From contig JANXRL010000043.1 in NCBI GenBank assembly GCA_025352985.1, positions 1 through 33,053 on the forward strand: 33,053 nucleotides of DNA, given 5' to 3'. The notes beneath the pieces were generated by a model. The model saw only the letters and a program-made list of their open reading frames with translations. It searched no databases and was not told the origin of the DNA. Made by a program: the position numbers and the translations under genes. This DNA is from Verrucomicrobiota bacterium (GTDB lineage Bacteria; Verrucomicrobiota; Verrucomicrobiia; Opitutales; Opitutaceae). Shown one piece after another: positions 9,196-26,292 of this stretch (positions are counted from its first letter, which is position 1; each line of letters starts with the position of its first letter).

Positions 9196-9206
9196 CCGTC
9201 TGGGGC

Positions 9207-9506: not shown

Positions 9507-9581
9507 TCGATTTGGTTCTTAAAGTCCGGGATGAGAGGGTTGCTTGCAACTCAAAAACCCGGAGTTCAATTTGCAGCTATC

Positions 9582-10328: not shown

Positions 10329-10370
10329 TGCTGGCGTTTCGTTTTAATACCTACCCCCCTTTTTTACCCT

Positions 10371-11558: not shown

Positions 11559-11589
11559 TCCGGCTCGTTCAACAACACCATTTCCACCG

Positions 11590-12936
11590 ATGCCCACCTC
11601 AAACTATTCCGTCTCTCGCCGTCATTTTATCCGGGATGCGTCGCTGGCCGCTTTTGCGGTGGCCTGCGCGCCCGTCTGGGCGCAGATCGCCCCGCAGGAC
11701 TGCTTCAAGAATCTGGTCGCGAAGGATAGGAAACTCCGGCTCGCCTGCATCGGGCTTGGCGGGAAGGGGCAGAGCGACGTGATGAACTCGTCCAGCGAGG
11801 ACATCGTCGCCTTGTGCGACGTGGACTTCGCGCGCGGCGCGAAGATTTTCAACCAGTTCCCCGATGCCGCCCGCTATCGGGACTACCGTCAGATGCTGGC
11901 GGAAATGGGTGACAAGATCGATGCGGTCACGATTTCGACGCCGGACCATACGCATTTTCCCGCCGCCCTGATGGCGATCGAGATGGGCAAGCACGTTTAC
12001 ATTCAAAAGCCGCTCACCCATACGATCGGTGAGGCGCGCGCGTTGAAGGCGGCTGCGGTCAAGGCGAGGGTGGTCACTCAAATGGGCAATCAAGGCCATG
12101 CGAATGTAGGCACGCGCATGCTGAAAGAATGGGTCGAGGCGGACGTGATCGGGGCCGTGCGAGAAGTCCATGCATGGACTGACCGGCCGATCTGGCCGCA
12201 GGGCGTCGTGCTGCCGGAGACGGCGATCGTGCCGCCCACGATGGATTGGGATCTCTGGCTGGGGTGCGGGCCGGTGCATGACTACAGTCCGAAACTGGCA
12301 CCGTTCAAGTGGCGCGGATTTTGGGATTATGGCTGCGGCGCGCTCGGCGACATGGGCTGCCACTTGTTGGACGCCCCTTTTTGGGCGCTGAATCTCCGGG
12401 GCCCGGTCAAGGTGTCGGCGGAGTCCGAGGGCAACACCGAGACGAGCTGCCCCAAGTGGTCGATCGTGACATGGGAATTTCCCGCACGCGGCGCTCTGCC
12501 GCCGGTGAAGATCAAGTGGTTTGACGGGGGCAAGAGGCCTCCGTTGCCGCAGGAGATGGGCAAGGACGAGCCGCTCGGCAAGGGCGGCGTCATCTATCTC
12601 GGCGACAAGGGAACGATCCTGAATGAGGATGATTATGGAGCGTCACCCCGGCTCATCCCCGAGGCAAAGCTGCGGGCGTTTACGAATCGTCCGCCCAAGA
12701 CCATCCCGCGCGTGCCCAAGGCTGATCCGCATATGGAGTGGATCAACGGCTGCAAGGGCGGTCCTGTTCCCGGCTCCAACATCGTCGATCACTCCGCCGA
12801 CCTGACGGAGATGGTGTCGCTGGGAAATCTGGCCATCCGCATGGGCAAGCCCATCCAGTGGGATCCGGTGAAAGGCGAGTGCGTCGGCATGCCCGAGGCG
12901 AATCGTTTCATCCACAAAAATTATCGGCTGTTCTGA
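11590..12936 (+). CDS. Tat-exported Gfo/Idh/MocA family oxidoreductase
   Basis: A 448-residue NAD(P)-dependent oxidoreductase with a twin-arginine signal (SRRHFIRDASLAAFAVACA), so it is expected to fold with its cofactor in the cytoplasm and be exported to the periplasm. The Rossmann motif is CIGLGGKG (GxGxxG, about residues 55-60). The catalytic lysine lies in YIQKPLTH, and the conserved GDMGCHLLD block is present. The family oxidises or reduces sugars and cyclitols; exported members in Planctomycetes and Verrucomicrobia are numerous and mostly uncharacterised. It sits between a DUF1080 hydrolase and a TIM-barrel lipoprotein, which fits a role in sugar keto chemistry. ATG 11590 is chosen because it begins the Tat signal; the frame extends upstream over the preceding gene. 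Confidence 0.9.
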   Translation: MPTSNYSVSRRHFIRDASLAAFAVACAPVWAQIAPQDCFKNLVAKDRKLRLACIGLGGKGQSDVMNSSSEDIVALCDVDFARGAKIFNQFPDAARYRDYRQMLAEMGDKIDAVTISTPDHTHFPAALMAIEMGKHVYIQKPLTHTIGEARALKAAAVKARVVTQMGNQGHANVGTRMLKEWVEADVIGAVREVHAWTDRPIWPQGVVLPETAIVPPTMDWDLWLGCGPVHDYSPKLAPFKWRGFWDYGCGALGDMGCHLLDAPFWALNLRGPVKVSAESEGNTETSCPKWSIVTWEFPARGALPPVKIKWFDGGKRPPLPQEMGKDEPLGKGGVIYLGDKGTILNEDDYGASPRLIPEAKLRAFTNRPPKTIPRVPKADPHMEWINGCKGGPVPGSNIVDHSADLTEMVSLGNLAIRMGKPIQWDPVKGECVGMPEANRFIHKNYRLF

Positions 12937-12950
12937 TCCCGTTATCCCTC

Positions 12951-13961
12951 ATGAAGTCGTTTTCAACAATCAGTTTTATCGTCGCCGCCCTGCTTGCCGT
13001 TGCTGGCTGCCGGAGCGTGCCGCCGTCGTCAGCCGAAGTCATGCCGCGACTCGGGTTGCAGGCTTGGACCTTCCGCAGCCTGACTTTTACCGAGACTTTG
13101 AAGACCGCAAACCGGCTGGGTATTCATTATTTGCAGGCCTATCCCGGGCAAAAACTGGGCGGTGATCTTGCGGGGAATTTTCACCACACGATGGATGCTG
13201 CGACGCAGGCCAAGGTGCTGGCGCTGCTCAAGAGCGAGGACGTGAAGCTCGTCAGTTATGGCGTGGTTGGCGCGCGCGATGCGGCCGAGTGGCGGCAGCT
13301 TTTCGTTTTCGCGCAGGCCATGGGTATGGACAGCATCGCGACCGAGCCGAAGCAGGAGACGCTGGCCGTGATCGATCCGCTCTCGCGGGAGTTCGGCATC
13401 GCGATCTCGCTGCATAACCATCCGACGCCCTCTATCTACGCTAACCTCGACACCGCGTTGGCGGCGATCAAGCCATTTGGTCTGAACGTGGGGCTCTGTG
13501 CCGACACGGGACATTGGGCGCGCTCCGGTTACGACCCGGTTGCAAACCTTCACCGTGCCGAGGGACATATTGTGTCGGTGCATTTCAAGGACCTGAACGA
13601 GGTGAACGTGAAGGGTGCCCACGATGTGCCGTGGGGCACGGGTGCTTCGAACGCGGCGGGGCAGCTGGCGGAGTTGCGGCGGCAGCATTTCAGCGGAGTC
13701 GTGCTGGTGGAATACGAATACAACACCGCCGATCTCGAAAAGAACGTGGGTTTGAGCGTCGAGTATTTCAACCGCGCCATGGCCGCGCCGCTGGTCGATC
13801 TTTTGCAGGGAAAAGTGATCCCGCCTGATTACACGCGGACGCCGAAAAAGCTTTGGGCGGATGGGCGGGGCAAGGATTCTTTGCGCTGGCCTGTCGCGCC
13901 GCCGCCTGCGCCGATGGTGCCAGTCCCGACAATCGCTGCTCCGGCCGCAGCTGCTCCGTGA
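12951..13961 (+). CDS. Lipoprotein with xylose isomerase-like TIM barrel
   Basis: A 336-residue protein with a lipoprotein signal: a hydrophobic helix ending in the lipobox AVAGC (Cys at about residue 20). The body is a sugar phosphate isomerase/epimerase (AP endonuclease 2-like) TIM barrel, with LGLQAWTFRSLTF at the start and the metal-site blocks IATEPKQE, SLHNHP, LCADTGHWARSG, VHFKDL and VLVEYEYN. The C-terminal 25 residues are Pro/Ala-rich low complexity. Members of this family are isomerases, epimerases or dehydratases of sugars and keto-sugars; an outer- or inner-membrane-anchored version is unusual. It is the third gene of the set, 14 bp after the Gfo/Idh gene, and converges with apbE. 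Confidence 0.87.
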   Translation: MKSFSTISFIVAALLAVAGCRSVPPSSAEVMPRLGLQAWTFRSLTFTETLKTANRLGIHYLQAYPGQKLGGDLAGNFHHTMDAATQAKVLALLKSEDVKLVSYGVVGARDAAEWRQLFVFAQAMGMDSIATEPKQETLAVIDPLSREFGIAISLHNHPTPSIYANLDTALAAIKPFGLNVGLCADTGHWARSGYDPVANLHRAEGHIVSVHFKDLNEVNVKGAHDVPWGTGASNAAGQLAELRRQHFSGVVLVEYEYNTADLEKNVGLSVEYFNRAMAAPLVDLLQGKVIPPDYTRTPKKLWADGRGKDSLRWPVAPPPAPMVPVPTIAAPAAAAP

Positions 13962-13971
13962 CGCGGCGGAG

Positions 13972-14814
13972 TTATTTAGCGGAATGATAGACTGGCGAGG
14001 GAAACGCGGAGAAGCACTCGATCGCTTCAGGGCGTTCCTCGCTGGCGAGCAAGGCGCCACCGGTGTCCGGTCGGCGTTCGCACACGGCGGTAATTTCGTC
14101 GCGTTCGAGCAGCATCCACGCGGTCGAGAGCGCGTCGGCGGCGGCCGCTGATCCGGCGCAGGCCCAGGTGCGCGTGTAACGATGGGAAGGTTTGCCGCTG
14201 CGCGGGTCGAGGATGTGCGCACCTTTGACGGATGCGCCGGAGGCACCGATGGCTGCGTTGGCGATCCAGATGCTCTGGCGCTTGGTGAGCGTGAGCTCCC
14301 AGTCCGCGCCGTCTGCGGGGCCGTCGAGTGTGAGCAGGCTGCTGCCGCCCGCGACGAGCAGCGCGCGGGGCAGTTCCCATTCGCGCAGGAGCGCGGCGAC
14401 GAGATCGAGGGCGAAGCCTTTACCAATCGCCCCGAGGTCGAGTTGGACGGGACCGCCTTCGCATTGCACGATGCGTTCCTCTGGAAACAACACGAGCCGT
14501 CCCGACTGCCCGAGCGCCGGATCGAACGCGCCGCCGGTTTCCGCGTGCAGATCGAGGGCCAGGCGGAGGCAGGCGAAGGTCTCCGCGCTCAAGCGCAGGT
14601 GCTCGCCCGGCGCGAGCCGGCCGATTTGCGAGATCTCACTTTCCTCACGGTAGCGGCTGAGCAAAGCCTCCACGCGATCAACCAGCGCGAAGGCTTCGAC
14701 CGCCGCTTGCCCCGCGTAGGCTGCGTCGTCGGTCGCCAGATGCAGCTCGAACCAAGTCGCCATCGCGTCGTGACGATGGCGGCTGATGGCTGGATTGGGG
14801 CGACCGGCGGACAC
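13972..14814 (-). CDS. apbE: FAD:protein FMN transferase (ApbE family)
   Basis: A 280-residue ApbE-family flavin transferase, which attaches FMN covalently to a Thr/Ser in membrane or periplasmic redox proteins, using FAD as donor. Visible landmarks are AMATWFELHL near the N-terminus, ETGGAFDPALG, the binding block QLDLGAIGKGFALD, the SGAS region and the magnesium site AHILDPRSGKPS. The start is the GTG at 14814; an in-frame stop lies two codons upstream, so there is no room for the signal or lipobox that many ApbE proteins carry, and the protein appears cytoplasmic or very short at the N-terminus. It is last in the long minus-strand gene run, 104 bp after the MFS gene. No obvious flavinylated partner with a DxxxSGAT-type motif is nearby. 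Confidence 0.88.
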   Translation of the reverse strand: MSAGRPNPAISRHRHDAMATWFELHLATDDAAYAGQAAVEAFALVDRVEALLSRYREESEISQIGRLAPGEHLRLSAETFACLRLALDLHAETGGAFDPALGQSGRLVLFPEERIVQCEGGPVQLDLGAIGKGFALDLVAALLREWELPRALLVAGGSSLLTLDGPADGADWELTLTKRQSIWIANAAIGASGASVKGAHILDPRSGKPSHRYTRTWACAGSAAAADALSTAWMLLERDEITAVCERRPDTGGALLASEERPEAIECFSAFPSPVYHSAK

Positions 14815-14918
14815 GGAGGGCTACGGCGTTTGGTTTGGCGGCGACGGGCGCAGGCGGGCTTGCGGGTTTGCAGCCGCCGATGCCCGAGACAGCGGGTGAG
14901 TTGATTTCACAGCGCGAT

Positions 14919-16139
14919 TTAAGCGCGAGTGGCGGCGCGGCGCGGGCGTAGGAAGAACAAGAGGCCGAAAATGACGGAGAGGACCAGCGGCAGCACGGCC
15001 ACCCGGCCAAGGGCTTCGAGGCCGGCGGCGGCCTGGATGGCGGCGAGGGCATCGGCGGCGGGCGCGGCACCTTCGGGGGTGCGGGCGGCGATGCCTTGGT
15101 CATACCATTTGCCGATGATGGGGAGCACGAAGCTGACGGAGAGCATGCCCGCACCACCGATGATGGCCATGCCGAGGGCGCCGGTCTTGGGGAAGTTTTC
15201 CGCGACGTAGCCGACCATGGTAGGCCAGAAGAAGCAGACGCCGAAGGCGAAGATGGCGGCGGCGGCGAAGAGCATGTTGCCGCTGGCGTGGCTCATGGCG
15301 TAGAGGCCGAGAGTGGAGAGAACGGCGCTCATAACCAACATCCCGGCCGGGGAGAGCTTGTGGACGAAGGGACCGGCGAACATACGGCCGACGGCCATGA
15401 TGCCGTTGATCCAGACCAGCACGAGGATGCCGGCGACGCCCGCGTGGGAAAGAATGTTGGGGATCCATTGGCCGGAGCCAAGCTCGGTGGCGGCGGTGAG
15501 GAGCATGCAGCCGACCATGAGGAGAAAGGCAGGGGCGATGCAGGCGGCGAACATGGAGCTGGTGGATTCGCCGCGTTGGACGCGCTCCGTCTGGGGAAGG
15601 GATTGGCCAAAGAAGAGGAAGCCGTAGGCAATGGCGGGAAGAAGCATGGTGGCGAACTGGGCCTGCCAGCCCAGGCCGAGCTTGCCGAAGAAGAAGGCGA
15701 GCAGACCACCGATGACGATGCCGCCGGGGAACCAGACGTGGAAGTGGTTGAGTTTCGTGGTCTGATCCTTGGGGTAAAGGGTGGCGACGAGGGGATTGCA
15801 CGCGGCCTCGACGGAGCCGTTGGCGATGCCGAAGAGGAGAGTGCCGGTGAAGAGACTCCAGAAATCCCAGGCGAAGATGGTGAGGAGGACGCCGGCGATG
15901 TGGCCGAAGAAAGCGATGCCGAGGATGCGTTTGAAACCAAGCGAGTCCACTAGGGGACCGCCGAACACCATGGCGAGGGTGAAGCCCCAGAAGGCGGTGC
16001 CATTGACCCAGCCGACTTGCTCGTTGGTGAGGTTGAACTGGGTCATCCAGTCACCGGTGGCACCGCCACGGAGGGCGAAGCTCATGGCGGTGACAATCAA
16101 GGCGAAGCAACTGGCGGTGAACAGGCGGTCGGGTTTCAT
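14919..16139 (-). CDS. MFS sugar transporter
   Basis: A 406-residue, twelve-helix major facilitator. The pattern resembles the fucose/galactose porter (FHS) branch: the first helices carry GWVNGTAFWGFTLAMVFGG, followed by IANGSVEAACNPLVATLYP and NHFHVWFPGGIVIGG. Later helices are rich in Gly, Ala and Phe (IFAFGVCFFWPTMVGYVAEN). FHS porters import monosaccharides with protons, so uptake of a sugar or a keto-sugar product is the likely role; substrate is inference. Its ATG overlaps the stop of a 59-codon ORF by 4 bp, and the ApbE gene follows after 104 bp. The clear neighbouring gene run suggests it is co-expressed with the Gfo/Idh enzymes. Confidence 0.88.
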   Translation of the reverse strand: MKPDRLFTASCFALIVTAMSFALRGGATGDWMTQFNLTNEQVGWVNGTAFWGFTLAMVFGGPLVDSLGFKRILGIAFFGHIAGVLLTIFAWDFWSLFTGTLLFGIANGSVEAACNPLVATLYPKDQTTKLNHFHVWFPGGIVIGGLLAFFFGKLGLGWQAQFATMLLPAIAYGFLFFGQSLPQTERVQRGESTSSMFAACIAPAFLLMVGCMLLTAATELGSGQWIPNILSHAGVAGILVLVWINGIMAVGRMFAGPFVHKLSPAGMLVMSAVLSTLGLYAMSHASGNMLFAAAAIFAFGVCFFWPTMVGYVAENFPKTGALGMAIIGGAGMLSVSFVLPIIGKWYDQGIAARTPEGAAPAADALAAIQAAAGLEALGRVAVLPLVLSVIFGLLFFLRPRRAATRA

Positions 16140-16315
16140 AGTTTAGGGTGGGTGGAAAAAGAGATGTCGTTAAAAACAATGAGTTCTGCGCCGGGGGAAG
16201 GCGGAGCGATGAGCACGCTGAGGCCGGGCGAGGCGGAGAACAACTCTGAGAGTTCATCGGGCGAAAGAATCATGGCCTCGTGACGGTGGGCGTGGACTGG
16301 GACGGCGGTGGACAT
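16136..16315 (-). CDS. Small ORF (59 codons) between Agl23-like and MFS genes
   Basis: A 59-residue frame, unrecognised. Its ATG lies 2 bp after the stop of the upstream membrane protein gene, and its TGA overlaps the ATG of the MFS gene (ATGA), so it fills the gap exactly. Many third positions are C or G, as in neighbouring genes. The N-terminus is His-rich (VHAHRHEAM), followed by a helix-like LSPDELSELF and a strand-like AELIVFNDISF. An internal ATG would give a shorter form. The AT-richer 3' part could instead be the leader or promoter of the MFS gene, so the coding status is not certain. Confidence 0.45.
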   Translation of the reverse strand: MSTAVPVHAHRHEAMILSPDELSELFSASPGLSVLIAPPSPGAELIVFNDISFSTHPKL

Positions 16316-16317
16316 GG

Positions 16318-17772
16318 TCAGGGTAGGCGTCCGAGGAAAATCCAGACGCCCGGCCGAAGTTCATACGGCTTCGTCGGCAAAAAAGGAAAATGATTGATCG
16401 CCTCCGGGCCGACAAGCACCGCTCCGGGCTGCACGCCTACCTGCGGCTCCGGCCAGTAGCCGGTGCGTGGAAAACGGCGCAGCGTCCAGGGCAACGGCCA
16501 GTAATCCTTGGAGATGACCTGAACGAGCAGATCGCGGCCCTCGGGGGATCCGGCGGCAAGCGTGTCGAGGTCGCGTTGCAAGCGCGTCAGATCAGGGCTG
16601 CTCGGTGAATAAGCGAGGGGATTGGCGGGATCGACCGCGTGGCGCTGGCAACGCGCGTAGGTTTCGGTGCCGAGCAGTGCGGCGACCACCGCCGCCGCGG
16701 CGAGGGCTACGCTCCGCGAGGGCAAGGCGCGCCATGCGGCGGCCGCGCCGAAACCGGCGAGCAGCGCCAGCGGGAGCAAGAACGCCAGCATTAGCCACGG
16801 CGTCTTATAGGGCAGGGCGGATTGCAGGAAGAAAATCAGCAGCGCCCAAAGTCCGAGCCGGCGGGCGAAGGGATGGGAGCGTCCGCTCCAAATGCCGACA
16901 GCGGCAAAACCTGCGATGAGCCAGCCGCTCCAGGGCAGGCCGATGGAGGTGGGCGCGAAGGCCCAGCGCAGGTAAGTCCACCACGGGTGGGCGTGTTCGT
17001 GGCCGAGGCCGCGCCCGACTTGCTGGTGCACGGCGGCGAGGAGATCGAGGGCGTGCGCAGGGTGGCTGCCGAAATTGCTGAAAAATAAAAATACGGTGGC
17101 GGCGCAGACCGCCGCAGCCGCAAGCAGTCCGCCGAGTTGGCGGCGCCAAGAAAGCGGACTGCCGATGAGAAAAACGGGAATCACGACGAGCAGGAGGGGC
17201 GCGGCGGTTTCTTTGGTAGAAAGCGTGAGGCCGGCGAGCAGGCCTCCGGTTAGCGCCAGAGGAATCGCACCGGATTCTCGCCAGCGCCAGAACACGCCGA
17301 CGAATCCGGTCAGCAAAAGCAGCAGGAGTGTCTCGTGGATGAAGATGCCGCTGTAATAAACAAACGGAGAGCCGAGCCCGATGAAGACGGTTGCTCCGAT
17401 CGCGGCGGCGGAATCGAGGGCGGGCCGCAGCCAGAAGACGGCGGCGACGAGGGCGGCGCCGGTGCAGGCGGTCACGAGGCGCAGCATCCAAGCCTCCATC
17501 TGCGCGACGCGGGTTATGCCGGCGGGTTTCAGCGCGGCGGTGGCCAGATAAAACAATGCGGGGCCGTGATGGTCGTTGGCGCGGTAGCGGTAGCCTTCGC
17601 CCGAAAGCGTTTCCTCAAGGATGTAGGCGTTCACGGCTTCGTCAGTGTGAAACGGGCGCGACTCCAGCCCGGGCAGGCGGACGAGCAGGGCGGCCACGAA
17701 GGCCAGCAAAGGCAGCAGCAGGCCGAGGGGGAGACGGCGGGCGGGTCCGGTTACTTTGCCTTGGTGCCCCAC
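16318..17772 (-). CDS. Agl23-like membrane glycosyltransferase-superfamily protein
   Basis: A 484-residue polytopic membrane protein with around ten to twelve hydrophobic segments. The first loop carries SRPFHTDEAVNAYILEETL and YRANDHHGPALFYLA, the acidic, His-containing loop characteristic of the 'flippase activity-associated' Agl23 family (a GT-C fold, related to PMT/ArnT enzymes). The final 100 residues form a soluble domain ending VWIFLGRLP. GT-C proteins transfer sugars from polyprenyl-phosphate donors on the periplasmic side; the acceptor here is unknown. The only sensible start is a GTG at 17772, which overlaps the end of the discoidin gene by 22 bp, an arrangement that suggests tight translational linkage. 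A small ORF follows 2 bp downstream. Confidence 0.75.
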   Translation of the reverse strand: MGHQGKVTGPARRLPLGLLLPLLAFVAALLVRLPGLESRPFHTDEAVNAYILEETLSGEGYRYRANDHHGPALFYLATAALKPAGITRVAQMEAWMLRLVTACTGAALVAAVFWLRPALDSAAAIGATVFIGLGSPFVYYSGIFIHETLLLLLLTGFVGVFWRWRESGAIPLALTGGLLAGLTLSTKETAAPLLLVVIPVFLIGSPLSWRRQLGGLLAAAAVCAATVFLFFSNFGSHPAHALDLLAAVHQQVGRGLGHEHAHPWWTYLRWAFAPTSIGLPWSGWLIAGFAAVGIWSGRSHPFARRLGLWALLIFFLQSALPYKTPWLMLAFLLPLALLAGFGAAAAWRALPSRSVALAAAAVVAALLGTETYARCQRHAVDPANPLAYSPSSPDLTRLQRDLDTLAAGSPEGRDLLVQVISKDYWPLPWTLRRFPRTGYWPEPQVGVQPGAVLVGPEAINHFPFLPTKPYELRPGVWIFLGRLP

Positions 17773-18425
17773 ACTTCAACCTCGATGTAGTGATTCAGGC
17801 TGTTGGTGGTGTTGCCCTGGCTGTAGAGGCGGACGTAGCGGCCTTTCGTCTCCTTGGCGTCTATCAGGCGGCCCTCGTAGGTCTCGATGTAGGCGGGGTC
17901 TTTGCCCGCGCCCTGGCCGACGAGGTTCTTGGCGTCGCTGTTGTAGAGGGTCTTCACGCCGGTGATGAAGTCGGGATCGTCGGAAACCTGCACGATGACG
18001 CCGAGGTAAACGCGGGCTTGGGCGTGGAAATGCCACACGAGCACCGCGTCGAGGGTGGCGGGGGCGCCTAGATCGATCTGCACCCACTGGGTGCTTTTCG
18101 CGAGTTCGACGTAGCTGCCCTCGCTGCCGTCCTTGTCGCCGTCGGTTATGAGGTCGAGATCGCCGAGCAACGGCTGCGGGTCGCTGCTGGTGACGGGTTT
18201 TTTTAGCGCGAGGTTCGTGCTGGAGGCGGAGATGAGGAAATCGGGGCGCTTGCCGCTGCGGGCCGGTTCGAGGTTGTCCACCTTGACGGGGACGGGCGTG
18301 CCGACGAAGAGCGGCTTGGGGAGTTCGGTCTTGAGCGGGATCTTGTCCTCGGCGTGCAGGCTGGTGACGGCGAAGGCAACGGAAACCAAGGTGGTGGCGA
18401 GGAGGGCGAGGGCGGAGCGTTTCAT
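17751..18425 (-). CDS. Exported discoidin (F5/8 type C)-like protein
   Basis: A 224-residue protein with a signal peptide (MKRSALALLATTLVSVAFAVTSLHA) and a single discoidin/F5/8 type C-like jellyroll. Family features are NLALKKPVTSSDPQP and LITDGDKDGSEGSY at the start of the domain, STQWVQIDLG, the strand VIVQVSDDPDF and the final RYVRLYSQGN and YIEVEVWG. Such domains bind carbohydrates or surface polymers. No catalytic domain is fused to it, so it probably acts as a binding protein or as a partner of the exported Gfo/Idh oxidoreductase encoded 4 bp upstream. ATG 18425 is chosen for the signal peptide; the frame continues further upstream over the neighbouring gene. Confidence 0.82.
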   Translation of the reverse strand: MKRSALALLATTLVSVAFAVTSLHAEDKIPLKTELPKPLFVGTPVPVKVDNLEPARSGKRPDFLISASSTNLALKKPVTSSDPQPLLGDLDLITDGDKDGSEGSYVELAKSTQWVQIDLGAPATLDAVLVWHFHAQARVYLGVIVQVSDDPDFITGVKTLYNSDAKNLVGQGAGKDPAYIETYEGRLIDAKETKGRYVRLYSQGNTTNSLNHYIEVEVWGTKAK

Positions 18426-18429
18426 GGGA

Positions 18430-19776
18430 TCAGACGGAGGGAACTTGAATGGTGACGAGCTGGCGTGTTTCCACGGCTTCGATGGCTTTGAAGATGACGT
18501 ATTCGCTCTTGAAGGCTTCGTCGGCGGGACAATTGAGCTTCGCCTTGCCGAGGATGCTTTGGAAGAAGTTTTCGAGGTGATACTGGTGGATGGCCTTGTT
18601 GAGGACGACGGGGATTTTGTAGGTGGCGAGGGCGGCGGTCTCGCGGGCATCCACCTTGGCGTCGGGATCGGGGGCGGGTGCGGCGTTGGCGCGGAGGTAG
18701 TTTTTGCGCACCCAGTCTTCCCACGATGGAGCGCGGGCCTCGCGGTAGATGGCGCAGAGGGCGGGATTTTCCGAGGTCTTCACGGTGCCTTCGTCGCCCA
18801 TGAACTGCTCGAAGTAGCCGCCGCCGGAACTCGTGGTCGTCTGCACCTGGTAAAAGGCGCGGACGGTGCCGGTGGCCAGCGGGTATTCGTAGATGACCAT
18901 GGCGTTGTCGAACCACTCGTGGTTCTTGTAATAGTCGTTGCCGCCGCTCGCGATGACGGAGGTGGGCGAGACGTCGAGGAACCAGTTCAACATGTCGATC
19001 TGGTGCGCGCCGAGGTCGGAGAGCGGGCCGCCGCCGAATTTTTTGAACCAGCGCCAGTTTCGGAAGGTGTGCATGTCCGGGTAGCCGTAGTGGGCGAGCA
19101 CGGCGGCGGGGATGGCGGCTTTCTTGGGCCAGCCGAGGTCCTCGGAGACGGCGCGGTTCCACTGGGCCTGGGCGGCGGTGATGCGGCCGGGGATGCGGGC
19201 TTCGCCGATGACGCGGTTGCGGGTGAAAAGGTAGCGCGGGTTGCTGCGGCGCTGGTGGCCGATCTGGAGGAGCTTGCCGGTTTCCTTCATGGTCTCGACC
19301 ATCGAGCGGGCGCCCTCGACGGTGTTGGACATCATTTTCTCGCAGTAAACGTGGAGGCCGGCCTTGAGGCAGGCGTTGGTGTGAGGGGCGTGAAAGACGT
19401 CGGGCGTGGCGACGATGGCGGCGTCGAGGGTTTTTTCTTTGGCGAGGAGCTCGTCAAGATCGGTGTAGGCGTTGACGTCGATGCCGCCGGATTTGAGGAG
19501 GCGCTGGCCGTAGGTGCGGGCGTAGTCCCACAGGTCGCAGATGGCGACGATCTGGACGCCGGGGATTTTCAGGATGGCATCAACGAGCACGCGGCCCTCC
19601 GCGCCGAAGCCGATGATGGCGATGCGCAGCGGCTTGGCGCCGGAGGCAGCGCCGATGGCGAAGAGATGCGGCGCAGTCGCGAGCGCGAGGGCGGCGCCGG
19701 CGGATGTAGTGAGAAAGCCGCGACGGGTGAGGACCGGCCCGGCGGCGGAGGTGGTGGGGGCGGACGACGGGTTCAT
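18430..19776 (-). CDS. Tat-exported Gfo/Idh/MocA family oxidoreductase (DoxX-linked)
   Basis: A 448-residue oxidoreductase with a Tat signal (LTRRGFLTTSAGAALALA) and a Rossmann motif IIGFGAEG (about residues 54-61). Where most family members have EKP, this protein has CEKMMSN, keeping the catalytic Lys but changing the next residue. The substrate-site block GGGPLSDLGAHQIDMLNWFL is complete. Exported members of this family normally hold NAD(P) tightly and need a partner to recycle it. The start codon overlaps the stop of the DoxX gene by 4 bp, and the discoidin gene follows after 4 bp, so all three are very likely translated together. The physiological substrate is unknown; a glycoside or sugar is likely by family. 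Confidence 0.9.
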   Translation of the reverse strand: MNPSSAPTTSAAGPVLTRRGFLTTSAGAALALATAPHLFAIGAASGAKPLRIAIIGFGAEGRVLVDAILKIPGVQIVAICDLWDYARTYGQRLLKSGGIDVNAYTDLDELLAKEKTLDAAIVATPDVFHAPHTNACLKAGLHVYCEKMMSNTVEGARSMVETMKETGKLLQIGHQRRSNPRYLFTRNRVIGEARIPGRITAAQAQWNRAVSEDLGWPKKAAIPAAVLAHYGYPDMHTFRNWRWFKKFGGGPLSDLGAHQIDMLNWFLDVSPTSVIASGGNDYYKNHEWFDNAMVIYEYPLATGTVRAFYQVQTTTSSGGGYFEQFMGDEGTVKTSENPALCAIYREARAPSWEDWVRKNYLRANAAPAPDPDAKVDARETAALATYKIPVVLNKAIHQYHLENFFQSILGKAKLNCPADEAFKSEYVIFKAIEAVETRQLVTIQVPSV

Positions 19777-20294
19777 GCGCGCGTGACGGCGAAGCGGTTG
19801 TGGTCGGCCAGGGAGAGCGCGTAGGCGACGAGACCGATGTGAATCGCGAGCCAGGAGACGCCTTGGTCCTGGCCGATCAGGAGGAGGCCGAGGGTGAGGG
19901 CGGTGTAGAGCAGGCCCATCGCGAAGAGGCTGAGGCGGGTGGCGACGCCGATGAGCAGGAGGAGGCCGGTGAGGATGAGCACGGGGCCGAGGGCGGCGTA
20001 AAAGGGCTTGGTCAGGAAATCGGGGAGCAGAGGCTCGGCGCCGAGCTTGGTTTGCAAGGAATCGGGGACGGCGTGGTAGTGGGAGAGGCCGTAAACTTTC
20101 TTTTCGATTTCGACCATCGCGCCGCTGGCGTCGGGCGCGCCGGCGGCGTCGAGCAGGGGCTCCTGGGTGGTGATCTTGGCGGAGTATTTTTCGAGGCCGG
20201 TGAGGAGGGCGCGGCCGCCTAGCCAGAGGCGCAGGGTGAGGAAGGCGAAGTTTTGACCGGTGAGACCGAGGAAGGAGGCTTGGGGGGAAGTCAT
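19773..20294 (-). CDS. DoxX-like membrane protein
   Basis: A 173-residue integral membrane protein with four hydrophobic segments and a periplasm-sized loop between the first and second (about residues 38-85). The opening RLWLGGRALLTGLEKYS resembles the DoxX first helix, and PVLILTGLLLLIGVATRLS the DoxX second helix. DoxX/DoxD proteins include subunits of thiosulfate:quinone oxidoreductase and other membrane redox partners; many are uncharacterised. The 4-bp overlap with an exported Gfo/Idh oxidoreductase gene is notable and suggests that this protein could act with it. No Cys pair or heme motif is visible, so direct redox chemistry is not shown. Confidence 0.75.
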   Translation of the reverse strand: MTSPQASFLGLTGQNFAFLTLRLWLGGRALLTGLEKYSAKITTQEPLLDAAGAPDASGAMVEIEKKVYGLSHYHAVPDSLQTKLGAEPLLPDFLTKPFYAALGPVLILTGLLLLIGVATRLSLFAMGLLYTALTLGLLLIGQDQGVSWLAIHIGLVAYALSLADHNRFAVTRA

Positions 20295-20313
20295 GGATTG
20301 GGGAAAACGAGGA

Positions 20314-23184
20314 TCAGGCTTTGGCGGTGGGTTTAGGTTCGGCGGGCGCGAATTCTTTGAGGAATTTTTCGGCGTCTTTACCTTTGATTTCTTTCACAGC
20401 GGCGAGGATCGCGGCTTTCTCTTCCGGGCGCGAGGCCAGCGGCCAGGCGGCGCGGTAGCCTTCGACGCGTTGGGCGGGTTTTAGGTTGTCGAGGGCGGCG
20501 AGAGTTTCGAGGTAGCCGCGGAGGGCGAGGGTCTGTTCTGAGGACTCTTTGCTGTTCTGAGCGGTTTCCTTGAGGAGGGCGTAGGCACCTTCGCTGCGGG
20601 CGGCGGCGAGTGCGCGGATGATGTCCTTGCGCACGGCGGCGTCGGGGGAGGCGAGCAGGGCGCGGAGAACTTTCGTGGATTCTTCGCCGGGGAGGACGGT
20701 GAGGGCGCCGATGAGCACGGGGCTTTCAGGGGCGTCGGGCTGGGCGAGGGCGGTCTGGATGAGGGCGATAGCTTGGCTGTTTTTTGGCTGGGCGGAGGCG
20801 GCCGAGAAAAGGGCTTTGCGCCATTCGCGCCGGTCGGCGGCTTTTTTGAGGTTGGGGGTGAGCGCGAGGATGAGGGGGAAGTCTTCGGCGCGGGCGAGCT
20901 TGGCGACGGCTTCAAAGGCGGAGGCGCGCACGGTGGCGTCGGCTTGCGAGCACAAGGTGAGGGCGGCGGGGAAGGCGGCGCGCTGCTGGCGGCCGGCGAG
21001 GATGGCGAGGATGGTAACCTTGGCGGCGGGAGCGTCGGCGCGGGCGAGTTTGTCGAGGAGAAGGATGTCCGCTTTACCAGCGGGGAGCAGGCCGAGACCT
21101 TCCTTGGCGGCGGCGGCGAGGTCGGGGGTGGCGGTGAGCAGGGGGATGAGCAGGTCCACGGTGGTCTCGTCGCCGCAGCGGCCGTCGGCGCGGGCGGCGA
21201 GAGGGCGGATGGAGACATCGCCGGCGGAGAGCGCGGTTTTGACAAGAGGCATCAGCGCGGGGGTTCCGGAGTCGTAGGCGGCGGAAACGACGGCGGCCTG
21301 CGTATCGGCCGGCAGGGAGGCGAAGGCGGCGTCGAGTCCGGTGAGCGCGGAAGGCAGACCGGAAAGCGCGAGGCTGCGGGCGATGGATTGACGGATGCGA
21401 AGGGCGGGGTCGCGGGTGAGCGGGAGAAGTTCGGCGACGGCGTTTTCACCGTCGGCAGCGAGGAGGATTTGCGCGGCTTCGATGCGGTAGGGGATGAGTT
21501 TTGTCGTGGACAGAACCGAGCGGGCCATCTTGGCGACGGCTGGGCGGCTGGCGGCGGGTGCGCGGCGGATCACGGTGTCGGCGGCGGCGAGGAGCGCGCG
21601 GGTGCGGGCTTCGGCCTGGGGGCCTTCGAGCGGCAGTGCGGCCAGGGCGGCGAGCGATGCGGGCGTGCCGATGCGGGCGAGGGCTTCGACGGCGGCATCG
21701 GCTTCGGCGGGAGACGGAGCGGTTTTGGCGATGCGGGCGAGGGCGTCGGTGGCGGAGGCCGAGCGGCGCTGGCCGAGGGCGTTGATGAAAGTGGCGCGGC
21801 TGGCGGCGGGAGCGTTGGCGGCAAGTCGCAGCAGGGCGACGTCGGCGGAGGGATCCGCGATGCCAGCTAGGGTGCGGGCGGCGTCGGCGGCGAGAACCTC
21901 GGTCATGCCGCTTTTTTCAAGGGCGGGGACGGCGGCGGGGGTGGCGGTCAACAGGAGGCAGCGGATGAGGGCCTGTTTCGCGGCGGCGGGGGTGCCGTCG
22001 GCGGTGATCAGGGCGAGGAGCTTGGGTTCGCCGGCGGCGCGCTCGGCGGAGGACTGGCCGCGCAGGGTGGCTTCGAGGCTGGAAATCACAGAGGTGTCCT
22101 GGCCGTAATCGTAGCGGGCGAGTTGCGCGAGGGAATCGGTCACGGGCGCGGCGGTTGAGGGGGCGGCGAGCTTGGCGGCGGGGACAAGAGGGGCGGGGAC
22201 GGCGGTGGTTTTGACGGAATGGGCGGCGAGTTCCTGGAGGGTGGTTTTGTCGTCGGGGGCGAGGGCAGGCGCGGGGGCCGCAGGCAGGCGAGCGGAGGGG
22301 ACGGCGTCGGCGGGGAGATCGCCGAGGGCGAATTGGATGCCGTCGAGGAAATGCTGAAGGATGGAGGGGACGTTGAAGATGTCCTTGTTGTGGCCGAGGG
22401 AGGAATAGAAGACGCGGCCGGCGCCTTCGTTTTTGATCCAACTGATGGGGAAATCGTTGTCGGTGCGGGCGATTTTGTCGGCGGGGCGGGCGTTTTCGGG
22501 GCGGCTCATGTCGAGGCTGAGCAACACGCGCTGATGGTCGCGGGCGTAGGGTCCCATGATCTGGTAGATTTCCTCTTTGATCCAGAAGCCTTGGTGATGA
22601 AAGGCGGTGTTGAGGACGTGGTCGGGGTCGTCGAGTTTGACGGCGACGAGGTTACCGGATGTCCACGGGTGGCCGTGGAAGAGCCCGCCGATGAGGGCCT
22701 GGCCTTCGGGCCACGTGGGGAAGTTGTCGGTGGCGGCGTGAAGGCCGACGACGCCTTTTCCGGAGGCGACGAAGTCGAGGAGGGCTTTGCGTTGGGCGGG
22801 GTTGGCGAAGGCGAGCTTGGTGGTGTTTTGAAACACGACGGCGTCGAAGGTCGCGAGCGTCGCGGGGTCGAACATCGCCATGTCTTCGCTCAGGACCGCG
22901 GTGTAGGCACCGCTGGCTTCGCCGAGACGACGCAGGGCTTCGTTGCCGTAGGGGATGCAGCCGTGGACAAAGCCCTCGGTGCGATAAAACACGAGGAGCT
23001 TGCGGGGCTTGGCGGGAGCGACGCGGGCCTTGGCGGGCAAGGCGTCGGCGATGGCGGCTTTTTCGGCGGGCGTGAGCGCGGGGAAAACGTGACCGGGTTC
23101 GGCGAGGGCGGTCGTGGCGGTTGCGCCGACGGTCAGGGCGAGAAGCAGGGCAAACGAAGAAGGGCGGAGGCGGACGGCAGACAT
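20314..23184 (-). CDS. Exported ThuA-domain protein with HEAT-repeat C-terminus
   Basis: A 956-residue exported protein. After a signal peptide (about residues 1-28) comes a ThuA domain (about 61-294), a glutamine amidotransferase-like fold linked to trehalose/3-keto-sugar metabolism: KLLVFYRTEGFVHGCIPYG, VGLHAATDNFPTWPE, LIGGLFHGHPW and VFYSSLGHNKDIF are present. A Pro/Ala linker leads to about 550 residues of HEAT-like helical repeats rich in Ala and Leu. No CxxCH heme motif is present, unlike many related planctomycete and verrucomicrobial proteins. In Sinorhizobium, ThuA works with the Gfo/Idh protein ThuB on 3-ketotrehalose, and this gene lies between two Gfo/Idh genes. ATG 23184 is chosen for its signal peptide; the 45 codons upstream are not protein-like. 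Confidence 0.87.
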   Translation of the reverse strand: MSAVRLRPSSFALLLALTVGATATTALAEPGHVFPALTPAEKAAIADALPAKARVAPAKPRKLLVFYRTEGFVHGCIPYGNEALRRLGEASGAYTAVLSEDMAMFDPATLATFDAVVFQNTTKLAFANPAQRKALLDFVASGKGVVGLHAATDNFPTWPEGQALIGGLFHGHPWTSGNLVAVKLDDPDHVLNTAFHHQGFWIKEEIYQIMGPYARDHQRVLLSLDMSRPENARPADKIARTDNDFPISWIKNEGAGRVFYSSLGHNKDIFNVPSILQHFLDGIQFALGDLPADAVPSARLPAAPAPALAPDDKTTLQELAAHSVKTTAVPAPLVPAAKLAAPSTAAPVTDSLAQLARYDYGQDTSVISSLEATLRGQSSAERAAGEPKLLALITADGTPAAAKQALIRCLLLTATPAAVPALEKSGMTEVLAADAARTLAGIADPSADVALLRLAANAPAASRATFINALGQRRSASATDALARIAKTAPSPAEADAAVEALARIGTPASLAALAALPLEGPQAEARTRALLAAADTVIRRAPAASRPAVAKMARSVLSTTKLIPYRIEAAQILLAADGENAVAELLPLTRDPALRIRQSIARSLALSGLPSALTGLDAAFASLPADTQAAVVSAAYDSGTPALMPLVKTALSAGDVSIRPLAARADGRCGDETTVDLLIPLLTATPDLAAAAKEGLGLLPAGKADILLLDKLARADAPAAKVTILAILAGRQQRAAFPAALTLCSQADATVRASAFEAVAKLARAEDFPLILALTPNLKKAADRREWRKALFSAASAQPKNSQAIALIQTALAQPDAPESPVLIGALTVLPGEESTKVLRALLASPDAAVRKDIIRALAAARSEGAYALLKETAQNSKESSEQTLALRGYLETLAALDNLKPAQRVEGYRAAWPLASRPEEKAAILAAVKEIKGKDAEKFLKEFAPAEPKPTAKA

Positions 23185-23225
23185 GGTGGCGATGGGGTAG
23201 GGAGGTGGTCGCGGCGCGGGGTTTG

Positions 23226-24551
23226 TCAGGCGTGAAGATCCCACGGGGCGCGGTAGGTGCGGAGCAGGAAGCGGGCGGCGTCGGGCGCGTCGATGGCGGT
23301 CTCGGTGGACGGATCCCAACGCAGTTCGCTGCGCCCGCTGCGGAAGGCGGCGTTGGCGAGGTGGGCAACGCTGGCGACGTTGTGGGCCTCATGGATGGGG
23401 CAGCGTGGCTGGGAATTGGTGCGGATGGCGTCGATGAAGTTATCCATGTGGCCTTTGGCGCCGCGTCCGAGCGTGAGACTTTGGGAGGGGATAACTACGC
23501 CGCGCAGGGCGTCGGAGCTGTGCTCGATGGTGCCGCGGGTGGCGAAAACCCAGCCGTCGGAGCCTTCAATGCGGAGGCCGCCCTTGTTTTTCGTCGATAC
23601 CTCGATGGCCACGCCGTTGGCGTAGTGGGCCTCGAAGGCATAGGCGGTGGCGGTGTTGAACAAAGGATCGCCCACGGGGAACTCGGCGGTGGCGTTGCGG
23701 ATGGCTACGGGGCCGGTGGTGCTGACGCCCATCGCCACGGCGGCGATGTCGAAATGGTGGCCGATCCAATCGGTGAGCTGGCCGCCGGCAAAGTTGAAGG
23801 ACCAGCGCCAGTTCCAGTGGCAGCGGGCGGCGTAATAGGGGACGTAGGCGACCGGCCCCAGCCAGCGATCGTAATCGAAGCCGGCGGGCGGGGTTTCAGG
23901 GGCGAGCGGCGCGGTGTGGTTGCCCCTCGCGCTCATGCCGGAGGGCAGGCCGACTTGCACGCGCGTGATTTTGCCGAGGTAGCCGTTTCGCGCTAGGTCG
24001 ATGGTGCGTTGGAATTCGCCGGTGGAGCGTTGCTGGCTGCCGATCTGGCAGACGACTCCGGCGCGGCGGACGGCGTCGGCCATGGCGCGGCTTTCGGGGA
24101 TGCTGCTGGCGGCGGGTTTTTCGCAGTAGATGTGTTTGCCTGCGTTGGCGGCCCACACGGTGGCGAGGGAATGCCAGTGATCGGGCGTGGCGATCAGCAC
24201 CGCGTCGATGTCCGGCCGGGCGATGATCTGCTGCATGTCCACGTATTCTTCGCAGCCCTTATAGGCGCTGCTGGCGGTGTCTTTCGCGTATTTTTCCGCG
24301 ACACGTTTTTGGGCGGCTTGACGGTGTTCCTGATCCACGTCGCACACGGCGACGATCTGGGCGAGGGGGTTGCCTAGGATGTTGCCCATGTCGCCCATGC
24401 CCTGGCCGCCGAGTCCGATGCAGCCAAAAGTGATGCGGTTGCTTGGCGCGGTGCCGCCGCCCAGACCGAGGGTTTGCGCGCGAACGAGGGAGGGGAAGGC
24501 AATCGTGGCCGATGATGCGGCCATCAATTTGATGAAGGAACGTCTTTTCAT
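23226..24551 (-). CDS. Tat-exported Gfo/Idh/MocA family oxidoreductase (first gene of the run)
   Basis: A 441-residue oxidoreductase with a Tat-type signal (KRRSFIKLMAASSATIAF) and the Rossmann motif CIGLGGQG (about residues 44-51). The EKP motif is intact in YCEKPAASS, and the substrate block FAGGQLTDWIGHHFDIA is present. It is closer in pattern to the Gfo/Idh protein at 11590-12936 (GLGG) than to the DoxX-linked one. Expected location is the periplasm. It is the first gene of the long minus-strand run, 41 bp before the ThuA-HEAT gene, and has an AT-rich leader region upstream. ATG 24551 is preferred; the upstream extension of the frame runs over the regulator gene. Confidence 0.92.
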   Translation of the reverse strand: MKRRSFIKLMAASSATIAFPSLVRAQTLGLGGGTAPSNRITFGCIGLGGQGMGDMGNILGNPLAQIVAVCDVDQEHRQAAQKRVAEKYAKDTASSAYKGCEEYVDMQQIIARPDIDAVLIATPDHWHSLATVWAANAGKHIYCEKPAASSIPESRAMADAVRRAGVVCQIGSQQRSTGEFQRTIDLARNGYLGKITRVQVGLPSGMSARGNHTAPLAPETPPAGFDYDRWLGPVAYVPYYAARCHWNWRWSFNFAGGQLTDWIGHHFDIAAVAMGVSTTGPVAIRNATAEFPVGDPLFNTATAYAFEAHYANGVAIEVSTKNKGGLRIEGSDGWVFATRGTIEHSSDALRGVVIPSQSLTLGRGAKGHMDNFIDAIRTNSQPRCPIHEAHNVASVAHLANAAFRSGRSELRWDPSTETAIDAPDAARFLLRTYRAPWDLHA

Positions 24552-24583
24552 GGGGTAAATGGGGTTACTACAGAGACAGTCAT

Positions 24584-24623
24584 AATATACGGAATTTCTC
24601 AAAAATCTTCTGTGAAATATACG
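24584..24623 (-). promoter_or_regulatory. Direct repeat CGTATATT x2 upstream of the Gfo/Idh gene; putative operator/promoter
   Basis: The 131-bp gap between the AraC-type regulator gene and the first Gfo/Idh gene is AT-rich, unlike the surroundings. Read on the minus strand, the 8-mer CGTATATT occurs at 24623-24616 and again at 24591-24584, 32 bp apart, or about three helical turns. The downstream copy overlaps a -10-like TATATT/TATTAT about 30 bp from the start codon, and no good -35 is seen, as is common at activator-dependent promoters. The link to the PAS-AraC protein next door is inference. Confidence 0.4.
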
Positions 24624-24682
24624 CTTAAATTTATGATGATTGCGACAAGATTGATAGGTGGCAAACCGCCTCCCGGGCAAAG

Positions 24683-25423
24683 TTATGCTTGCAGCTCCCG
24701 GCAGCGGCGCGGGCTTAGCCCGAAATGTCGGGTGAACATGGCGGTCATGTGGCTCTGGTCGTAAAAACCGCATTCGGTGGCGATGGAGGCGAGCGACTGG
24801 TTGGTGCGCACGAGCCGGTGGCGGGCGGCTTGTAGGCGGACGCGGTTCACGTAGTGGATCGGCGAGGTGTTGAAAGTGCCGGTGAAGTTTCGCCCGAAGG
24901 AGCGCGGTGAAAGGCCGGCGATAGCGGCCAGTTCGCGCACGGTCAGGCGGGTGCCGTAGTGCTGGCCGATGTGTTCGAGCACGGCGAACATCGTCTTGCC
25001 GTAGTGCGATGGGGCGTTCTGCCGCGACAGGCGGGTCATGACGCCGGCGAGCCCGACGATCTTGCGGCGGCGGTCCCGGAGCGGGACCTTGTTCACCAGC
25101 CACCAGCTGAAGGTCATATCGTTGGAGGGGACTGGTTCGGAGAGATTGCGGATGGGTCGGCCGGTTTCGATGACTTGGTGGTCGTCCGCCACGAATTTTT
25201 CGGCGATGTTTTTAGGGAAAAAATCAAAGTCGATTTTCCCCAGGATCTCATCGCGGTGCCTGCAGCCGAGCATGGCGATGAAGCCGTCGTCCATCTGCAC
25301 GAAGCGCCCGGCGTGATCCTTGGCGAAATAGTTGAGCTCGGGCACGCAACTGAGGAGTTGTTCGAAGTGGGTGCCGGGTTCCAGGCTTTCGAGAAACCGC
25401 CTGATGGAAAAGGAAGAGGGCAT
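24683..25423 (-). CDS. PAS domain-containing AraC-family transcriptional regulator
   Basis: A 246-residue regulator. Residues of about 20-130 form a PAS domain (PELNYFAKDHAGRFVQMDD, then GKIDFDFFPKNIAEKF and VNKVPLRDRRRKIVGLAGVM). Residues of about 145-246 are the AraC-type double helix-turn-helix, with RELAAIAGLSPRSFGRNF as the first helix-turn-helix and IATECGFYDQSHMTAMFTRH with FGLSPRRCRE as the second, carrying the family signature. A PAS sensor replaces the usual cupin ligand domain, so the signal may be a small ligand or redox state. It lies on the same strand as, and 131 bp upstream of, the Gfo/Idh-ThuA-DoxX run, so a role in controlling that run is likely by position. Confidence 0.88.
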   Translation of the reverse strand: MPSSFSIRRFLESLEPGTHFEQLLSCVPELNYFAKDHAGRFVQMDDGFIAMLGCRHRDEILGKIDFDFFPKNIAEKFVADDHQVIETGRPIRNLSEPVPSNDMTFSWWLVNKVPLRDRRRKIVGLAGVMTRLSRQNAPSHYGKTMFAVLEHIGQHYGTRLTVRELAAIAGLSPRSFGRNFTGTFNTSPIHYVNRVRLQAARHRLVRTNQSLASIATECGFYDQSHMTAMFTRHFGLSPRRCRELQA

Positions 25424-25563
25424 GAAGGACGTGCGGGGTGATTCAGGCCCGGGTGGCGCGGTCAGGCAATCTTTCGCGTGGAGGGAGGGCTTGCGCCGGA
25501 GAGCGTCGGCGGTGTTGGATGGGCTGGCGGTTTAGACGGCGGATGCGCCGCGCCAGTTTCACG

Positions 25564-26292
25564 ATGCCCCAATTTTTACTGGTTATTCCCGCCTATCGCG
25601 AAGTCCAAAGGCTGCCGGTTTTCGCCGGCGAGCTGCTGGCGGCGCTGGCTCAGGCGGGGTTGTCGGTCGCAGTGCAGGTGGTTGATGACGGTTCCCCGGA
25701 AGCGGAGCGTGTGGCGATGGCGGCGCTGTGCGAAAGACTGCGCGGGCGCTGGCCGATGATGCAGCCGTTGATCGCGTTGCCGGCAAACGTCGGCAAGGGC
25801 GCCGCGGTCTATGCGGGCTGGGATACGGCGGCCGAGGCGCGTTGGCTGGGGTTTTGCGATGCGGATGGAAGCGTGCCGGCTGACGAGGTGGTGAGGCTGA
25901 TGTGGATGGTGCTGGCGGCGAACGATCCGGTGGTGTGCGTGATTGCGAGCCGGCGTTCGTCGGACGGGAAAAGCGTGCACCGAGGCTGGCTGCGCGGCGG
26001 GCTGAGCCGGTTGTTCTCGGCGTGGGTGCGCCGGTGCGCCGGGCTCGGGGTGCGTGACACTCAGTGTGGCTGTAAATTTATACCGGCGACGGTTTATCAA
26101 ACGATCCGGCCGGGGCTGCACGAGCGGCGGTTCGTCTTCGATGTGGAGCTTTTGAAAAGGACGGTCGAGGCGGGCGTCCGGGTGCTCGAAGAACCCGTCA
26201 ACTGGGTGAGCCGACCCGGCGGGTCGCTGCGGTTGTGGCGAGACGGGGCGACGATGGCCGCAGCCGTCTGGCGGTTGAGAAACCGACGTTGA
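25564..26292 (+). CDS. Family 2 glycosyltransferase
   Basis: A 242-residue GT-A fold transferase resembling dolichyl-phosphate beta-glucosyltransferases. Visible are the nucleotide-binding strand LLVIPAYREVQRLP, VVDDGSP, NVGKGAAVYAGW, the metal-binding FCDADGSVP (DxD-like), RDTQCGCKFI and RRFVFDVELLKR. Such enzymes usually load a sugar from a nucleotide donor onto a polyprenyl phosphate. No long membrane helix is seen at the C-terminus. An in-frame ATG at 25543 would add seven residues; I prefer 25564 because the core strand begins there. It is divergent from the PAS-AraC gene (140-bp gap) and converges with carA. It could supply the donor for the Agl23-like GT-C protein encoded elsewhere in the window, which is speculation. 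Confidence 0.87.
   Translation: MPQFLLVIPAYREVQRLPVFAGELLAALAQAGLSVAVQVVDDGSPEAERVAMAALCERLRGRWPMMQPLIALPANVGKGAAVYAGWDTAAEARWLGFCDADGSVPADEVVRLMWMVLAANDPVVCVIASRRSSDGKSVHRGWLRGGLSRLFSAWVRRCAGLGVRDTQCGCKFIPATVYQTIRPGLHERRFVFDVELLKRTVEAGVRVLEEPVNWVSRPGGSLRLWRDGATMAAAVWRLRNRR

Follow-up and report, generated by a model that had tools for sequence, protein, structure and literature searches.

A widely conserved DoxX-like, Gfo/Idh, discoidin, GT-C and ApbE gene set within a minus-strand gene run of a Verrucomicrobiota bacterium

Gene content of the run

We analysed a 33,053-nucleotide stretch of a Verrucomicrobiota genome (GenBank assembly GCA_025352985.1, contig JANXRL010000043.1, Opitutaceae), referred to here as the window, which is contig C2 of the draft genome (G000). 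Nine open reading frames occupy positions 13,972 to 24,551, all on the minus strand, with intervals from GfoA to ApbE of, in order, 40, 19, -4, 4, -22, 2, -4 and 104 bp, and a PAS-AraC gene lies 131 bp from GfoA. A first-pass annotation of this DNA had given the same coordinates, strand and upstream gene, and its spacing agrees with our recomputed gaps. It had also read the nine genes as one pathway, which our comparison of about 270 genomes does not support. The run is very probably a composite, in which a conserved core of two operons (DoxX-like, GfoB and Disc; GT-C and ApbE, often with GT2) is combined with a variable module (PAS-AraC, GfoA and ThuA-HEAT on the minus strand, together with a PF06439 hydrolase, GfoC and a TIM-barrel protein on the plus strand) and with a patch made up of an apbE remnant and a recently imported MFS block. 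The features are as follows.

19773..20294, minus strand: core DoxX/MauE-like four-helix membrane protein (weak profile match, model and synteny)
18430..19776, minus strand: core GfoB, Tat-exported Gfo/Idh oxidoreductase (PF01408, twin arginine, invariant K147-D254-H258)
17751..18425, minus strand: core Disc, small Sec-exported F5/8-C (discoidin) protein (Pfam F5/8-C)
16318..17772, minus strand: core Agl23-like GT-C membrane glycosyltransferase (TIGR03663, predicted fold, DE and HGP motifs)
13972..14814, minus strand: core ApbE, no signal peptide (PF02424; Ser192-His200-Asp227)
25438..26292, plus strand: GT2, polyprenyl-phosphate-sugar-synthase-like (PF00535)
24683..25423, minus strand: PAS-AraC regulator (Pfam HTH_18, PAS_4)
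23226..24551, minus strand: GfoA, exported Gfo/Idh protein of the accessory module (PF01408 and PF19051)
20314..23185, minus strand: ThuA-HEAT exported protein of the accessory module (PF06283, 142 bits, and HEAT_2)
10371..11558, plus strand: putative 3-keto-disaccharide hydrolase of the accessory module (PF06439, 122 bits)
11590..12936, plus strand: GfoC, Gfo/Idh dehydrogenase homologue (8TDF/8TDH and BT_2158 family matches)
12951..13961, plus strand: AP_endonuc_2 (xylose-isomerase-like) TIM-barrel exported protein with a lipoprotein-like leader (Pfam)
16136..16315, minus strand: 59-amino-acid frame, internally deleted apbE remnant (comparison with ApbE of relatives)
14919..16139, minus strand: MFS transporter, imported block (Pfam; DNA identity to L037/L070)

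The family labels of the first-pass annotation were upheld for Gfo/Idh (two proteins), ThuA, HEAT, F5/8-C, MFS, ApbE, PAS and AraC, all of which exceed their Pfam cut-offs, and for the Agl23-like protein; the DoxX label has only a weak match. All nine of its frames exist, but the one at 16136-16315 is the apbE remnant and not a gene. GT2 probably begins further downstream than the GTG at 25438. Scans of the run for promoters and terminators showed no clear signal, the one promoter-like site (24664-24636, upstream of GfoA) comparing with 0.8 expected by chance.

A conserved core in Verrucomicrobiota and Acidobacteriota

Relatives with matching contigs were labelled Opitutaceae and Puniceicoccaceae. 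Loci of relatives holding a DoxX orthologue (n = 20) all have the order DoxX-GfoB-Disc, with GT-C at 16 and ApbE at 15, and a GT2 gene often adjoins GT-C and ApbE. A further 80 loci, many of them on short contigs, were picked on Disc alone; GfoB was present at 73, DoxX at 61, GT-C at 55 and ApbE at 48. These Disc-picked loci span Opitutia, Limisphaerales, Verrucomicrobiales, Spartobacteria, Kiritimatiellae, Acidobacteriaceae and Aminicenantes. The core occurs across Verrucomicrobiota and in Acidobacteriota and is not peculiar to the source genome. The five core genes keep the same order in many genera, as the first-pass annotation had proposed to check for the whole run, but the order does not extend to GfoA, ThuA-HEAT, MFS or the 59-amino-acid frame. 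Two kinds of partial locus were also seen. Loci L121, L126, L128 and L134, from metagenome-assembled genomes of Aminicenantes/Acidobacteriota, have Disc-GT-C, mostly with ApbE, and no DoxX nearby, and two loci of Lentisphaerota/Victivallales (L098 and L108, the latter with two copies) carry the Disc family without other core genes nearby.

The two halves of the core also co-occur at the level of whole genomes. A strong GT-C match was found in 34 of 35 Disc-bearing genomes against 1 of 59 others among the relatives (n = 94; Fisher test, 3e-23), and in 28 of 28 against 5 of 166 among genomes drawn from the phylum (n = 194; Fisher test, 5e-29), values to be read with the caution that the genomes are not independent and that the E-value thresholds were set after the scores were seen. 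The presence of core-type ApbE parallels this pattern genome-wide. Where both genes are present, the distance from GT-C to ApbE is within 10 kb in 50 of 54 genomes, whereas for GT-C and Disc this holds in only 35 of 52. Where the GT-C-ApbE pair is apart from Disc it remains adjacent and stands among housekeeping genes. Since in many genomes the halves co-occur with no linkage between them, they look like a pair of small operons that travel together. Within the genus of the window (13 genomes), strong DoxX, Disc and GT-C matches are jointly present in three genomes and jointly absent from ten. Pairwise distances of the five core proteins correlate (Mantel r 0.56-0.80, p = 0.001), a result that shared ancestry alone could give. 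Other conserved neighbours of the core, or of split-off GT-C-ApbE pairs, were only housekeeping genes or sporadic sugar genes.

The variable parts of the run and its patch

GfoA, ThuA-HEAT, AraC and MFS genes are found in only a minority of the relatives' loci (ThuA-HEAT in 4 of 20). The PAS-AraC gene is upstream of GfoA in several relatives and directly upstream of DoxX in L036. The first-pass annotation had assigned the MFS protein as porter of the pathway; the gene is instead a separate import. In L037, L070 and L071 the gene order is GT-C, ApbE, MFS. In the window, the first apbE has been reduced to a remnant between GT-C and MFS, and an intact apbE follows MFS. The 59-amino-acid frame joins the N-terminal 15 and C-terminal 44 amino acids of an ApbE, its N-terminus resembling the ApbE of L037, and its local alignment score against ApbE is 63 (maximum of 1000 shuffles, 53). 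The DNA of the MFS gene is 88% identical to that of L037/L070 and the flanking core DNA 65-73%, which suggests that the MFS block was recently imported or exchanged.

GfoB, the DoxX-like protein and Disc

GfoB carries PF01408, a twin arginine and the residues expected of a Gfo/Idh/MocA protein. The twin arginine, K147, D254 and H258 are invariant in 21 orthologues, and we take the last three to be the catalytic set of the Gfo/Idh family. Among solved structures, DgpA proteins score as its closest relatives.

The assignment of the DoxX-like protein is weak and goes no further than DoxX/MauE type. Its MauE score of 24.1 bits is below the Pfam cut-off of 27, and among 20 orthologues searched at E <= 1, MauE was matched by 13 and DoxX by 7. 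The predicted model (predicted local distance difference test score, pLDDT, 87) has four helices with a beta-hairpin after the first. Among solved structures it resembles NACHO most (Z 13.4 over 125 residues, which is borderline for a helical bundle), followed by the quinone-using vitamin K gamma-carboxylase (Z about 8). Sequence searches of this protein and of GT-C against solved structures returned no usable match. Disc resembles CBM32 modules only weakly (E 0.001 or worse), so we do not infer a ligand for it.

GT-C, GT2 and ApbE

GT-C scores 140.3 bits against TIGR03663/Agl23 (NCBIfam cut-off 126.25). Its DE motif is kept in 17 of 17 sequences and an HGP motif is also conserved. The predicted model (pLDDT 89) matches ArnT (Z 29.4 over 425 residues) and oligosaccharyltransferase (Z 29.7), and a polyprenyl-phosphate-sugar transferase is the natural reading of this predicted fold. 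Agl23 itself belongs to an archaeal N-glycosylation locus. The protein described here is like Agl23 in exceeding the family cut-off and in its DE and HGP motifs, and unlike it in being paired with ApbE in bacteria rather than placed in such a locus. G047, G104 and G241 have GT-C homologues but neither Disc nor a strong match to core-type ApbE, possibly a sign that the family has a different use there.

In one relative, the single-contig genome G032, ApbE and GT2 are naturally fused in a frame of 556 amino acids (L043:14061-15728). The core ApbE scores 125.6 bits against PF02424 (cut-off 25.6) and lacks a signal peptide. Its residues S192, H200 and D227, kept in 16 of 16 sequences, were equated by alignment position with the catalytic Ser-His-Asp reported for the cytosolic Klebsiella ApbE, which flavinylates a soluble fumarate reductase (PMC12052999). 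The core ApbE thus resembles the Klebsiella enzyme in the lack of a signal peptide and in the conserved triad, but its locus contains neither fumarate reductase nor a recognisable target. A dedicated ApbE paralogue within a redox gene set is also a feature of the ApbE-linked extracytosolic electron-transfer systems (PMC8238504, PMC11334425). Unlike those systems, the core has no FMN_bind, DUF2271, DUF3570 or flavinylation motif, and its ApbE has no signal peptide. No mention of Gfo/Idh proteins or glycosyltransferases was found in these two papers.

No flavinylation motif recurs in the core proteins or their conserved neighbours. An SG-A-M stretch in a loop of the DoxX-like protein was considered and rejected, as its last residue is hydrophobic and variable. 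Among 12 genomes checked, FMN_bind was present in 2, DUF2271 in 1 and DUF3570 in 6, and DUF3570 was always beside a second, ordinary ApbE and never beside the core ApbE. The source genome has such a pair (G000:C102:1681-3666), as do several relatives. In G014, G032 and G081 the core ApbE is the only ApbE present, and FMN_bind, DUF2271 and DUF3570 are all absent.

A 3-keto-glycoside module beside the core

The plus-strand genes at 10371-13961, which the first-pass annotation overlooked, are convergent on the run and include hallmark 3-keto-sugar enzymes; the end of the TIM-barrel gene is 10 bp from apbE. The hydrolase score is well over the PF06439 cut-off of 26.8, and GfoC is a full-length homologue of the solved dehydrogenases 8TDF and 8TDH (E 1e-86); the best solved-structure match of GfoA is also 8TDF. 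None of the three Gfo/Idh proteins reaches the cut-off of 750 for NF058561, the BT_2158 glycoside 3-dehydrogenase equivalog (GfoC 418.5, GfoA 147.5, GfoB 75.5 bits), and by sequence all three are homologues but not equivalog members of the BT_2158 family, GfoA being a weak relative.

The Bacteroides-type 3-keto-glycoside pathway (BT2157-BT2159) consists of a keto-hydrolase and Gfo/Idh 3-dehydrogenases. The accessory module resembles it in its PF06439 hydrolase, in the full-length BT_2158 homologue GfoC and in its TIM-barrel isomerase-like protein, and differs in that GfoC and GfoA fall under the equivalog cut-off. It is a variant of this described pathway, a 3-keto-glycoside kit joined here to the core; to our knowledge, the core genes (DoxX, GfoB, Disc, GT-C, ApbE and GT2) are no part of that pathway.

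Two other systems invite comparison. Caulobacter has a LacABC-type periplasmic lactose 3-dehydrogenase and a DUF1080 hydrolase (PMC9007349). The present locus is like it in pairing PF06439 hydrolases with extracytoplasmic oxidation (presumably at C3 here), and unlike it in using Gfo/Idh dehydrogenases and a DoxX/MauE-like membrane partner. No LacABC-like subunit was found among the genes of the run in a Pfam scan of 13972-25423 and 8398-13961, which assigned other families to all proteins except the DoxX-like one (below cut-off) and GT-C (TIGR03663). As in Sinorhizobium ThuA/ThuB, a ThuA domain occurs with Gfo/Idh genes nearby, but the window's ThuA protein is exported, is fused to HEAT repeats and belongs only to the variable module.

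The association with keto-sugar genes extends beyond the window. In 21 core-bearing genomes, which total about 90 Mb, 189 PF06439 domains were counted; at that density 0.042 would be expected in 20 kb, yet a PF06439 gene lies within 10 kb of the core locus in at least 9 of the 21 (P about 8e-8). In three relatives a TIM-barrel-PF06439 fusion lies directly upstream of DoxX (L039:10413-11957, L041:10346-12202 and L042:7881-9500), in nearly gapless arrays. This enrichment supports a link of the core to C3-oxidised sugars and, together with the hydrolase, GfoC and TIM-barrel genes next door, bears out the connection to extracytoplasmic 3-keto-sugar chemistry that the first-pass annotation had drawn.

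Proposed function and alternatives

The conserved residues and export signal of GfoB, the predicted GT-C fold, the ApbE triad and the ApbE-GT2 fusion favour a dehydrogenase exported by the twin-arginine translocation (Tat) system with re-oxidation at the membrane. After folding with nicotinamide adenine dinucleotide (NAD) in the cytosol and export by Tat, GfoB would oxidise a sugar outside the cytoplasmic membrane, with C3 as the probable position. Its electrons would pass to the quinone pool through the DoxX-like four-helix protein, while Disc may hold a glycan or the complex. GT2 and GT-C would make a polyprenyl-phosphate-dependent glycan serving as substrate or anchor, and an acceptor within this chain, not yet recognised, would receive flavin mononucleotide (FMN) from ApbE. 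The accessory module, where present, would cleave the keto product. Of all this, the analysis shows the gene content, its conservation and co-occurrence, the intact catalytic residues, the export signals and the predicted fold of GT-C; the substrate, oxidation at C3, coupling to quinones, the acceptor of the flavin and the product of GT-C are inferred. We put forward this whole mechanism, a membrane-tethered, quinone-coupled extracytoplasmic sugar dehydrogenase with flavin attachment and glycosylation, tentatively and somewhat short of an even chance. A more novel reading, which we consider doubtful, is that the core is an extracytoplasmic redox system in which flavinylation couples sugar oxidation to the respiratory chain. 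The cytosolic-type ApbE would then act on an acceptor of a new class, such as GfoB ahead of its export, the DoxX-like protein, or a glycan or lipid made by GT-C.

Several observations weigh against the proposed dehydrogenase. The strict motif D-x-x-[S/T]-G-A-[S/T] was found in none of the conserved genes of 21 loci, so that no flavin acceptor was recognised, and the DoxX-like protein, a helical bundle, resembles its structural matches too weakly (Z 8-13) for quinone binding to be concluded. GT-C is superfluous to the mechanism, which leaves the strict GT-C/ApbE pairing unexplained, and GT-C occurs, with or without ApbE, in the Disc-free genomes G099, G111, G222, G104, G241 and G047. Finally, the core is present and PF06439 absent in G002, a genome 99% complete, and keto-glycoside cleavage by this family is therefore not obligatory.

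The last point also fits a role in finishing an envelope glycan, which we consider somewhat unlikely. GT2 and GT-C would then glycosylate a lipid, glycan or protein of the envelope, and GfoB, DoxX and Disc would oxidise or epimerise the added sugar in place, the core being anabolic and the 3-keto-glycoside genes merely frequent neighbours. The ArnT/oligosaccharyltransferase fold of polyprenyl-phosphate-sugar transferases, the conserved DE motif and the recurrence of GT2, fused to ApbE in one genome, agree with such a role. It accounts poorly for 3-keto-glycoside genes being significantly enriched next to the core and for the nearly gapless arrays of three relatives, and no recurrent flippase, ligase, polymerase or other glycan-assembly gene was found in the neighbourhoods.

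A single catabolic pathway of all nine genes, as first proposed, with glycoside oxidation, rearrangement of the keto product and import by the MFS protein, is improbable. The shared strand and tight spacing, the presence of ThuA, Gfo/Idh and keto-hydrolase genes, and the MFS gene that follows GT-C/ApbE in L037, L070 and L071 as well, all speak for it. However, GfoA/ThuA-HEAT and MFS vary while the core is constant, the MFS gene is a recent import, one of the nine frames is an apbE scar, GT-C and ApbE have no role in such a pathway, and genomes carrying the core alone weaken it further. We regard it as very improbable that shared ancestry and operon hitch-hiking in Verrucomicrobiota produced the association, with no common function behind it. 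Our tests concern whole-genome presence and synteny only, in relatives that are not independent, which leaves some room for this explanation, but the two halves co-occur even where they are unlinked, the core genes are found together in 3 of the 13 genomes of the window's genus with strong DoxX, Disc and GT-C matches absent from the other ten, the set recurs in Acidobacteriota, and few genomes were found with one half alone.

Meaning of the core

The first-pass annotation had called the composition of the run unusual. Our search of open-licence papers on TIGR03663, on DoxX with ApbE or discoidin, and on ThuA with DoxX likewise found no description of the core, an absence that is not proof, although the set is far from restricted to the source genome. 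As far as this search shows, the core, a widely conserved set of five or six genes for oxidising sugars, attaching flavin and transferring sugars at the cell envelope, is undescribed. Its ApbE has an intact active site but no known substrate, and this enzyme's lack of a recognisable target makes it directly testable. Carriers of the core include isolates such as Occallatibacter savannae (L075), and the five genes make both the targets of orphan ApbE proteins and the re-oxidation of periplasmic Gfo/Idh enzymes accessible to experiment. If the proposed dehydrogenase is correct, 3-keto-sugar metabolism in Verrucomicrobiota and Acidobacteriota would include a redox and glycosylation apparatus dedicated to it.

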